DNA of 64,000 nucleotides from NCBI GenBank assembly GCA_902532195.1, contig CACAHE010000006.1:1-64000 (forward strand), written 5' to 3'. The number at the start of each line of letters is the position of its first letter. Position 1 is the first letter of the stretch. The position numbers and the translations under genes are program-made. Shown piece by piece: positions 15,220 to 27,652 of this stretch. The notes beneath the pieces were generated by a model that saw nothing but the letters and a program-made list of their open reading frames with translations, did not search any database and was not told the DNA's origin. This DNA is from an uncultured Pelagibacteraceae bacterium. GTDB lineage: Bacteria; Pseudomonadota; Alphaproteobacteria; Pelagibacterales; Pelagibacteraceae.

Positions 15220-15747
15220 ATGGATTTAAAAGAATATATTAGATCAATTCCGGACTATCCCAAAAAAGGAATACTTTTTAGGGATATAACAACTTTAATT
15301 AAAAATGAAAAAGCTTTTACTAATTGTATCGATCAAATAGTTGAAAAATCTAAAAAATTTAAATTCAACAAAATAGCTGCAGTTGAATCTAGAGGATTTG
15401 TTTTTGCTTCTGCAGTTTCTTACATATTAAATAAACCTTTCATTTTACTTAGAAAAAAAAATAAACTACCAGCTGAAACACACTCTGTAGATTTTGAATT
15501 GGAATATGGAACTGCTACGATAGAAATGCACAAAGACTCTATTAGTAAAGAGGATTCTGTAATTATAATTGATGATTTAATAGCAACAGGCGGAACAGCA
15601 GAAGCTGCTGCAAAACTAATAAAAATATCTAATGGAAAAGTTTCAGGTTTTATATTTGTTATTAATCTTTTTGATTTGGGTGGTTGTGATAAACTTATCA
15701 AAGATGGATTTAAAGTTGAGAATTTAATTGAATTTCCTGGTCATTAA
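15220..15747 (+). CDS. apt: Adenine phosphoribosyltransferase
   Basis: IRSIPDYPKKGILFRDITTL, VESRGFVFASAV, VIIIDDLIATGGTAEAA. Confidence 0.95.
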   Translation: MDLKEYIRSIPDYPKKGILFRDITTLIKNEKAFTNCIDQIVEKSKKFKFNKIAAVESRGFVFASAVSYILNKPFILLRKKNKLPAETHSVDFELEYGTATIEMHKDSISKEDSVIIIDDLIATGGTAEAAAKLIKISNGKVSGFIFVINLFDLGGCDKLIKDGFKVENLIEFPGH

Positions 15748-24818: not shown

Positions 24819-25271
24819 TTAAATATTAGCTTGATTCTTTATTCTCCATCTAGATCCTTCTCTAACAATAAAACCAACGCAATTTTTAGACCTACACTTA
24901 CAAACATAATCTTTATAATCACTATTAAAACTAAATCCATAATCATAAGTTAATTCTTCATTTTTTTTTATGTTCCTCAATGCCGTAATCCATATCCTTG
25001 ATTTACTTTCTTCAACAGCCTCACAATTAGGTTCACATGAATGATTTGCTAATCTAGCAATATTAAACTTAAAATCTCCATCTAAAACAAATTTTTTATT
25101 TATTATGAATAAATAAGTAATGTCGTAACCATACTTTGAATCTTCTTCTGCTTTTTTGTGAGTAATTTTTTTTCCAATATATTCAATTATTTTTTCACCT
25201 TTTTTTATATTTCGTGAAGCACAAAGACCTTTTCGATGAATGTTTGATTTTATAATTTTATAGGGTTTCAT
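24819..25271 (-). CDS. SET domain protein with post-SET-like Cys motif
   Basis: GLCASRNIKKGEKIIEYIG, RLANHSCEPNCE, NEELTYDYGF, CKCRSKNCVG. Confidence 0.88.
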   Translation of the reverse strand: MKPYKIIKSNIHRKGLCASRNIKKGEKIIEYIGKKITHKKAEEDSKYGYDITYLFIINKKFVLDGDFKFNIARLANHSCEPNCEAVEESKSRIWITALRNIKKNEELTYDYGFSFNSDYKDYVCKCRSKNCVGFIVREGSRWRIKNQANI

Positions 25272-25351
25272 TTTTCTAGTTAATAAATTTTATGATTTAA
25301 TAATCCATGTGACATATTTGTTTAAATGTTAAGATGATCTAGTGGTAATTA

Positions 25352-25395
25352 GAAGTTGGATCGAACCACTGACCTCGGGCTTATGAGTCCCGCGC
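25352..25395 (-). repeat. Displaced tRNA-Met 3'-half fragment (att-like direct repeat copy 1)
   Basis: 44 nt aligning to 27585-27628 with 1 mismatch (38 nt perfect: 25358-25395 = 27591-27628). Confidence 0.9.
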
Positions 25396-25460
25396 CATAA
25401 AAATTTATAACAGTTTTATTGGATAATTTCTAAGAAATTTTTAAAAATTTGCTTCTCATT

Positions 25461-25476
25461 GACGCCTCAGTGACGC
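25461..25476. repeat. Paired GACGC motif (11-bp period), left end of the tRNA island
   Basis: gacgcctcagtgacgc; counterpart at 27537-27552. Confidence 0.6.
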
Positions 25477-25526
25477 ATAAAAACAAGATGACAACGGGAA
25501 TTCTTTTTGTATTCCCGCGGACTTTT

Positions 25527-25784
25527 TCATTTAGCTAATTTATCTTCCTGATCAGGATCTTCCATAAATTTCTTATCAAACTCTGCTTGATCTATTTTAA
25601 ACCATTCAAAAAGTTCTTTATGACTAACGTTTGTAGATCGAGCTTCATCATTATGGTTGAGCCAAAAAACAAAATAATACTTTTCATTTTCAAATTCTGA
25701 ATTGTAGCCAATTAACTCGATTTCTTTAACTTCACCATAAACCCATTTATCAACTTTTTTGTATTTAGGTTCGGGTCTGGTCAT
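25527..25784 (-). CDS. Hypothetical protein (island)
   Basis: 85 aa acidic ORF, no recognised motif. Confidence 0.55.
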   Translation of the reverse strand: MTRPEPKYKKVDKWVYGEVKEIELIGYNSEFENEKYYFVFWLNHNDEARSTNVSHKELFEWFKIDQAEFDKKFMEDPDQEDKLAK

Positions 25785-25788
25785 TATA

Positions 25789-26340
25789 TCAACTTTCCAA
25801 AGGTTTCATTTGATTGCAAAGTCTATTTGCTTTTTGAATTGATGGAACTAAATAATTAAGCTTCCAATTATTAACTGTTATATCAAAATATTTTTTAGCT
25901 TTAAAATCTTCGCCATCAACGATTTCAATTTCATATTTTTTTATTTTTTTATAAAATTCATCAAGGAAACCGATATAATCTTTAATTGGAAAAGCACCTA
26001 AACTAAAAATAATATGGTTTCCGTTTAAAATAGGATTAACTGCAATAATTCTAGCAGTTAGACCTACTTTTCCATTAAGTTTCAAAGGAATGTCTTTGTC
26101 TATTAATTGCTTAAGATCTTTTGGATTTTCCCAAGTATAAAATGAAAATGTATTTGTCACTCTTTCACAATTATCAGATGGATCTAATATAAAGATTAAT
26201 TTGTCTCCATATTGTATCTCACCTGATACAGCTGCATAACTATAACCATCGTATGCTTTGACTGACCACTCTTCTTCTGCATGAGAATTTGAAACGTTAA
26301 ATATAAAAAGTGAAAATAAGATCAGGATGATTCTGAACAT
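25789..26340 (-). CDS. Hypothetical secreted protein (island)
   Basis: N-terminal signal peptide FRIILILFSLFIFNVSNSHAEE. Confidence 0.6.
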   Translation of the reverse strand: MFRIILILFSLFIFNVSNSHAEEEWSVKAYDGYSYAAVSGEIQYGDKLIFILDPSDNCERVTNTFSFYTWENPKDLKQLIDKDIPLKLNGKVGLTARIIAVNPILNGNHIIFSLGAFPIKDYIGFLDEFYKKIKKYEIEIVDGEDFKAKKYFDITVNNWKLNYLVPSIQKANRLCNQMKPLES

Positions 26341-26370
26341 ATTTAAGGATAAATCTAATATTTGGCGAAT

Positions 26371-27519
26371 TTATGTCTTATTTTTTTTTTTATAAACTTT
26401 TTTTATATTTTCGATAAAATCGAGAACATTATCATTATTCTCATTTTCATTTTTTTCTTTTTTATTGCTTAGTTCAAAATCAATTTTTTCTTTATTTTTA
26501 TAGTATTTAATTAATCTTGGTATTTCAGACTCTAGTTTTTCAAAAGTTGGTTTCAACTCTTCTGGGGTTTTAAAAGAAGTTGAAATTATTCGATTAAATA
26601 TTTTAAGCCAATCTTTTGGATCATGATTTCTATTCAATAATCCCCTTAAACCCTCGATTATTTTATTTTCATTATATAATTCTTCAAAAGAATATTCAAT
26701 TTTCCTGATCAACCTTAGAGATTTAATTCTTCTAATTGATTTATATTCATCACGTTCATACCACCATCGTAGATCTTGTATTCCTTTTCTTTCTGGATAT
26801 TTTTTTAATATAAATTTATTATTTTTTAAATGATTATAAATGATTTCAAGTGCTTTAAATTTAGTATGATCTATATCTTCAGCTTTAAAAATCTTATTTA
26901 ATTTAAAATTATTTTTAAAAAATAAATTTAGTTGATCATCTGAATAAGAGATCGTTTTTCCATAATATTTGTCACTTAAATGTTTTTGATATAACTTGTT
27001 ATAATCATTCAGTTTAATTTTATTTAGATTTAAATATCTTAAAATAATTTTATAAGAACCGTCTTCATATTTATATTCTTCTTTGTTTTCATTGTATACA
27101 AAGTCTAATTTTGCTATAGGGGTAAAACTATGATGTGGCACTCTACCAAGTCTTTGGGAAAGATTATATCCCGAATAAGGTAGTTCTTTTGTGAAATAAT
27201 AATCAGATAAATAAAAAGTATAGCCTTCCCAAAAAAAATGAAGATATTGGTTGGTATGTTGATACTTTAAAAAATGTTTATAAATAATATCAGATTTTAA
27301 TTTATAACATTCGCTCTTTCCTATTCTAAAATAATTAAATTTTCTTTTAAATGACTCTTCTATAGATTTTCCATGTTTAACTTCAGAAAAAAATAATATT
27401 TCAGTATTAGGATTTGCAGATCTATAATTTGTTAATCTCGCTTTAATATTTGTCTCTGAATCGGCTATTCCAATTTTGTAGTAGTTGTTTATTTTCGTGG
27501 TACAATAAAAATAATTCAT
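26371..27519 (-). CDS. Hypothetical protein with possible N-terminal GIY-YIG/T5orf172-like domain (island)
   Basis: NYFYCTTKINNYYKIGIADSETNIKARLTNYRSANPNTEILFFSEVKHGKSIEESFKRKF. Confidence 0.55.
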   Translation of the reverse strand: MNYFYCTTKINNYYKIGIADSETNIKARLTNYRSANPNTEILFFSEVKHGKSIEESFKRKFNYFRIGKSECYKLKSDIIYKHFLKYQHTNQYLHFFWEGYTFYLSDYYFTKELPYSGYNLSQRLGRVPHHSFTPIAKLDFVYNENKEEYKYEDGSYKIILRYLNLNKIKLNDYNKLYQKHLSDKYYGKTISYSDDQLNLFFKNNFKLNKIFKAEDIDHTKFKALEIIYNHLKNNKFILKKYPERKGIQDLRWWYERDEYKSIRRIKSLRLIRKIEYSFEELYNENKIIEGLRGLLNRNHDPKDWLKIFNRIISTSFKTPEELKPTFEKLESEIPRLIKYYKNKEKIDFELSNKKEKNENENNDNVLDFIENIKKVYKKKNKT

Positions 27520-27536
27520 TTAAAGACTTTATCAAT

Positions 27537-27552
27537 GACGCATGAGAGACGC
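27537..27552. repeat. Paired GACGC motif (11-bp period), right end of the tRNA island
   Basis: gacgcatgagagacgc. Confidence 0.6.
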
Positions 27553-27575
27553 AAATTTAGGCAGATAGTCTAGAA

Positions 27576-27652
27576 TGGTAGCGGGAAGTGGGATCGAACC
27601 ACTGACCTCGGGCTTATGAGTCCCGCGCTCTAACCAACTGAGCTATCCCGCC
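27576..27652 (-). tRNA. tRNA-Met (CAT anticodon), CCA encoded
   Basis: Minus strand: GGCGGGATAGCTCAGTTGGTTAGAGCGCGGGACTCATAAGCCCGAGGTCAGTGGTTCGATCCCACTTCCCGCTACCA; cloverleaf arms pair. Confidence 0.95.

Follow-up and report, generated by a model that had tools for sequence, protein, structure and literature searches.

The window, i.e. the whole stretch of 64,000 nucleotides that was analysed, originates from an uncultured Pelagibacteraceae bacterium (assembly GCA_902532195.1, contig CACAHE010000006.1) and harbors an intact tRNA-Met(CAT) gene on the minus strand at 27576-27652 (ARAGORN; Rfam RF00005, 65.9 bits). A displaced 3' fragment of this tRNA is found on the same strand at 25343-25395, on the 3' side of the intact gene and 2.2 kb downstream of it. 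In a search of the whole 974-kb assembly, the displaced copy aligned over 25352-25395 (minus strand), corresponding to tRNA positions 25-68, with 98% identity (E 9.3e-16). Beyond these conserved positions the tRNA homology runs on to 25343, across a decayed acceptor end (25343-25351) with four clustered changes; the fragment is slightly longer than the 25352-25395 given in an earlier sequence-only reading of this DNA. The pairing of intact tRNA-Met and displaced 3' fragment noticed in that reading was confirmed by ARAGORN, Rfam and the assembly-wide search, and its description of the roughly 2.2 kb in between as three ORFs without a recombinase also holds. The fragment folds no better than shuffled sequences. 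We call the junction at the intact gene attL and the fragment attR. Just past the fragment, a SET-domain protein is encoded at 24819-25271 (Pfam E 2.8e-26), and the far boundary of the locus is the apt gene for adenine phosphoribosyltransferase (15220-15744, plus strand), the product of which is 81% identical to the protein of relative G043.

The three ORFs of the island are all located on the minus strand and encode polypeptides of 382 amino acids (26371-27519, no family match), 183 amino acids (25789-26340, with a hydrophobic N-terminus) and 85 amino acids (25527-25784, no known function). Convincing matches in Pfam, PHROGs or PADLOC were obtained for none of them, and inspection of the ORFs and family searches revealed no recombinase or integrase gene within the island. 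Likewise, no integrase, excision regulator or replication gene of its own and no remnant ICE or IME genes were recognised, and a scan for terminator-like sites inside the island found none. The N-terminus of the 382-aa protein is weakly GIY-YIG/T5orf172-like; 18 of 2000 shuffled sequences score equally high, and a GIY-YIG identity was set aside as weakly supported. The AlphaFold prediction for this protein is unusably poor (mean pLDDT 38), and a sequence search of the PDB returned a single weak match to which we attach no weight. Searches of phage records with the 382-aa ORF (tblastn) and the distal end of the island (blastn) gave nothing, or short tRNA-Met-like matches in unrelated phages.

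Paired repeats that the sequence-only reading had not mentioned are present at both ends of the island. On the minus strand, the CCA end of the tRNA is followed after 23 bp by GCGTCTCTCATGCGTC, the proximal pair GCGTC-TCTCAT-GCGTC at 27537-27552, and the distal pair GCGTCACTGAGGCGTC (GCGTC-ACTGAG-GCGTC, 25461-25476, minus strand) is positioned about 65 bp ahead of the displaced fragment. The linker from the distal pair to the core (25396-25460, minus strand) is of a type common to the islands of G434, G316, G244 and L090. Both pairs are direct repeats with a period of 11 bp and follow the pattern GCGTC-N6-GCGTC, of which the window holds exactly two copies, with 0.00 expected from shuffled sequences, and the whole 974-kb assembly only these two, one per island end. 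The arm-type sites of lambda-type tyrosine integrases resemble such period-11 direct-repeat pairs flanking a core. By this analogy, the GCGTC pairs are putative arm-type integrase sites.

Pattern searches identified a GCGTC pair after tRNA-Met in G434, G316, G244, G376, G263, G124, L090 and L094, and all eight records are uncultured Pelagibacteraceae whose isolates are named in the AG- series. The first seven of these and G017 have the motif of the proximal pair at the same position as the window. The distal ends are of two types. The first is shared by the window, G434, G316, G244 and L090, with 55-93% identity over the 130 bp before the core; the window is the most distant member (55-62% to the other four, which are 72-93% identical among themselves). 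A DNA search with the distal end of G244 gave three real matches, the rest being AT-rich noise. The sister type (82-95% identity) is found in G376, G263 and G124, in second islands of G316 and L090 and in both G017 islands. Core to core, the islands of both types measure 1.07 to 3.36 kb, apart from those of G017 with 5.2 and 10.8 kb. The four relatives with the distal end of the window carry no integrase in their islands, and the five islands of this type have differing cargo but keep both repeat pairs at a fixed spacing. Among islands with the sister end type, there is one integrase-bearing element (in G017) and there are several islands without integrase. The cargo comprises an ArsP permease with an ArsR-type regulator, a dienelactone-hydrolase-like protein, small membrane proteins and unknown proteins. 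Some cargo is common to different islands: membrane proteins in G434 and G316, the last ORF in G244 and L090, and the 183-aa protein of the window, which is distantly related to a 161-aa protein carried by the mini-island of G244 (phmmer E 5.7e-5 in a set of 89 proteins). The 10.8-kb island of G017 (L037, 7932-18792 in reverse-complement coordinates) has sister-type ends and no recognised integrase, and contains, as judged by eye, TRAP transporter and aldehyde dehydrogenase-like genes.

Comparison of the tRNA-Met locus across about 34 relatives, the comparison of empty and occupied sites that the sequence-only reading had proposed, showed extensive variation. In four relatives (G043, G035, G144 and G141), none of which is near-identical to the window genome, the site is empty and the tRNA-Met is directly followed by a convergent apt gene. 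Other relatives carry islands at this place, with varied DNA between tRNA-Met and apt, including sugar-nucleotide genes like those that follow in the window. An absence of empty-site variation among close relatives, which would have spoken against a mobile element, is thus not what the locus displays. An additional partial or full tRNA-Met copy occurs, among the matches listed, in 8 of 26 genus genomes including that of the window, and in many genomes the displaced fragments begin at the anticodon stem (positions 25-33).

Movement is best documented by a sister island. An integrase-less island of 1.64 kb with the ArsP permease and ArsR-type regulator is present in G376, G263 and G124. The G124 and G263 copies are 98.5% identical, and the G376 copy shares 97.0% identity with either of them. 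The flanks on the apt side are 76.7% (G263/G124), 76.1% (G376/G263) and 88.1% (G376/G124) identical. Because the island is 97-98.5% identical and the flanks are 76-88% identical, the sequences indicate that an island without integrase moved recently between hosts. When the G376 flanks are joined at the core, they give the empty tRNA-apt junction as it occurs in G043, and the 400 bp upstream in G376 are 99.2% identical to G102, where the island is missing and a different 169-aa gene is found at this place. For the window island itself, movement is deduced from its ends.

The window segment is thus probably a non-autonomous integrative mini-island that carries a complete attachment site of a tyrosine integrase without the integrase itself and is mobilised in trans. 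In circular form, the island would contain the 3'-half core of tRNA-Met between two GCGTC pairs, one at a distance of 23 bp and the other at about 65 bp. The integrase would come from a helper element, phage or island, that belongs to the G017 family. Its N-terminal domain would bind the arm pairs, and recombination between the circular island and the tRNA-Met core would take place at the anticodon stem. The outcome would be a restored tRNA (attL), the 3' half of which would be derived from the element, and the displaced 3' fragment (attR). The ends, the repaired tRNA, the variation between empty and occupied sites and the horizontal movement of one integrase-less sister island belong to the observed part of this scheme; the circular intermediate, the identity of the integrase, its activity in trans and a vehicle for transfer from cell to cell belong to the proposed part.

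The sequence-only reading had left a choice between a decayed element and one mobilised in trans, of which the evidence favors the latter: several islands with differing cargo keep intact ends without an integrase, and a sister island moved recently. It is unlikely that the island is a decayed CIME in the strict sense, the resident leftover of a once-autonomous element whose integrase gene was deleted. Such an origin would agree with the lack of an integrase and the decayed acceptor end of the displaced fragment. No identical or near-identical copy of the island was found when its ends were searched in 399 genus genomes, nor an identical copy of the 382-aa ORF in 147 family genomes, which also fits a remnant. 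However, five integrase-less islands keep both repeat pairs and their spacing, and independent decay would hardly give such uniform ends; the recent spread of the integrase-less sister island also argues against it. Because no near-identical copy was found and the acceptor end of the fragment is decayed, the copy in the window may nevertheless be old. Movement only in cis, in which the island is excised and carried together with a neighboring integrase-bearing element accreted at the same tRNA, is considered very improbable. Tandem arrays do occur at tRNA-Met, in G124 (a prophage and then the ArsP island), G316, G244, L090 and G017, but the ArsP island that stands behind the prophage in G124 is alone at the tRNA in G376 and G263, and no integrase element adjoins the window island. 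The possibility that tRNA-Met was duplicated in tandem long ago and the second copy then decayed, which the sequence-only reading had named as a possible refutation, is already contradicted and can hardly be credited: G051 does have a second full tRNA-Met copy nearby, but the displaced fragments are 3' halves joined to conserved integrase-type end sequences instead of tRNA 5' sequence, and the empty sites consist of a single tRNA adjoining apt.

For mobilisation in trans, the source of the integrase has to be considered. In the window assembly (77.6% complete), Phage_integrase matches a single 325-aa ORF, which is located on another contig. Nearly every relative has one ORF of about this size, and the size and single copy are as expected for XerC or XerD. 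XerC/D was considered unlikely as the recombinase, as it is a single core-like gene present nearly everywhere and it is other integrases that the arm repeats follow. In G434, G316, G244, G376 and G263 (genomes 69-81% complete), no integrase beyond at most one gene of XerC/D size was found, and G124 has an additional weak integrase-like match in its prophage. Since no helper is visible in the assembled part of the carriers, it is probably transient, although most island genomes are 69-81% complete and a resident helper could be located in a gap.

The nearest helper candidate, as suggested by a proximal repeat pair of the same motif, is found in G017. Here a 5.2-kb element bounded by the sister-type end encodes a 337-aa tyrosine integrase (Pfam 5.6e-23, with a weak arm-binding domain match), the start of which overlaps or closely follows the same proximal pair. 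Integrases related to it were found in 18 of the 399 genus genomes, and several of these integrases, located beside tRNA-Met, have their own period-11 pair at the integrase start (GTGTGATCA, GGGCACA, TGTGACA). On phage contig L085, CGTACC pairs flank the tRNA-Met core at distances of 58 bp (before) and 126 bp (after), beside a 436-aa integrase. Because these integrases are accompanied by pairs of their own, repeat motif and integrase vary together. An integrase-bearing element with exactly the distal end type of the window was not found in the 399 genus genomes, nor was an attP of its kind in the viral contigs searched. An exact search of viral contigs gave no hits when the tRNA core extended into the 5' side of the anticodon stem, and with the core from position 33, a start chosen since several displaced copies begin there, it gave four contigs. 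The CGTACC pairs belong to a prophage family at tRNA-Met with integrases of 424-436 aa, represented by L038/L039 (G124) and the viral contigs L083, L085 and L086; L083 and L086 contain a complete tRNA-Met copy. Beside the G017 integrase, a 422-aa T5orf172 (GIY-YIG) protein is encoded (L037, 4047-5315 in reverse-complement coordinates) that matches the PADLOC candidate PDC-S57 (E 4e-25).

SAR11 bacteria are among the most abundant bacteria of the ocean and have streamlined genomes with few obvious mobile elements. How they gain and swap accessory genes is an open question, for which recombinase-free islands with recognisable ends offer a concrete route, and the arm-repeat motif predicts which integrase moves which island. 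We give even chances to the broader proposal that the integrase-less mini-islands of SAR11 (mostly 1-3 kb, up to 10.8 kb) form a cassette-like class. Their standardised att ends, with arm repeats that match each end type to its integrase, would exploit the tyrosine integrases of passing phages or islands, and the islands would stack in tandem at one tRNA-Met and shuttle accessory genes from cell to cell. As the islands lack a recombinase, island finders that start from integrases would miss them, and for the same reason similar elements may be common elsewhere.

Of the hallmarks of tRNA-integrated islands, the window island displays the restored tRNA with a displaced 3' fragment and the empty sites in relatives, and it lacks an internal integrase. 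Its way of working resembles that of a CIME, CALIN or MITE. The CIMEs of ICE/IME loci keep attL and attR without integration or transfer genes and accrete in tandem at one site (PMC5704250). Similarly, the window island retains attL and attR without genes for integration or transfer, and islands of its type are stacked at one site. CIMEs are described as decayed ICEs or IMEs, whereas the SAR11 islands are mostly 1-3 kb and have uniform ends although their cargo is unrelated; one or more of them spread between hosts without encoding an integrase. The ssrA islands of Dehalococcoides are also arranged in tandem and bounded by RNA-gene repeats, and 15 have no integration module (PMC3146451); these use a serine recombinase (DsiB), unlike the SAR11 islands, for which the candidate is a tyrosine integrase with arm-type repeats. 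CALINs and MITEs possess recombination sites alone and obtain the enzyme from elsewhere (PMC11389934), but the sites are integron attC sites or transposon ends, in contrast to the tRNA core and arm pairs of a phage-type attP in SAR11. Tycheposons, including tRNA-Met islands of Methylophilaceae, are cargo islands of streamlined plankton, described with a tyrosine recombinase and a length of 4-200 kb (PMC10872708); the window island has the border tRNA but not the recombinase. PICMI phage satellites are small, marine and helper-dependent and encode an integrase, AlpA and a primase (PMC10803314), none of which is recognisable in window-type islands; the window island thus also differs from phage satellites in general (PICI, P4, PICMI), which have an integrase, excision or replication gene of their own. 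Additionally, in Pelagibacterales a tyrosine recombinase and tRNA genes are found beside a recently transferred phosphonate operon (PMC12416821). A description of this SAR11 tRNA-Met system was not found in the open-licence literature; an earlier one in subscription papers is possible.

Islands of opposite polarity occur at the same tRNA-Met in G003 (L036, 2049-5920), G093 (L043, 7145-9876) and G124 (L038, 2077-3688; all in reverse-complement coordinates). In these, a 5' fragment covering positions 1-63 is located upstream and an intact tRNA at the downstream end, and GGTCCAC pairs occur close to either end. No integrase was recognised in the three islands, and the one in G003 encodes a helicase-like protein of 1090 aa. 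Another island, in G026 (L042, 6828-10304 in reverse-complement coordinates), has three GCTCCA repeat pairs, of which the internal one suggests two fused islands, and encodes pilin-like and globin-like proteins as judged by eye.
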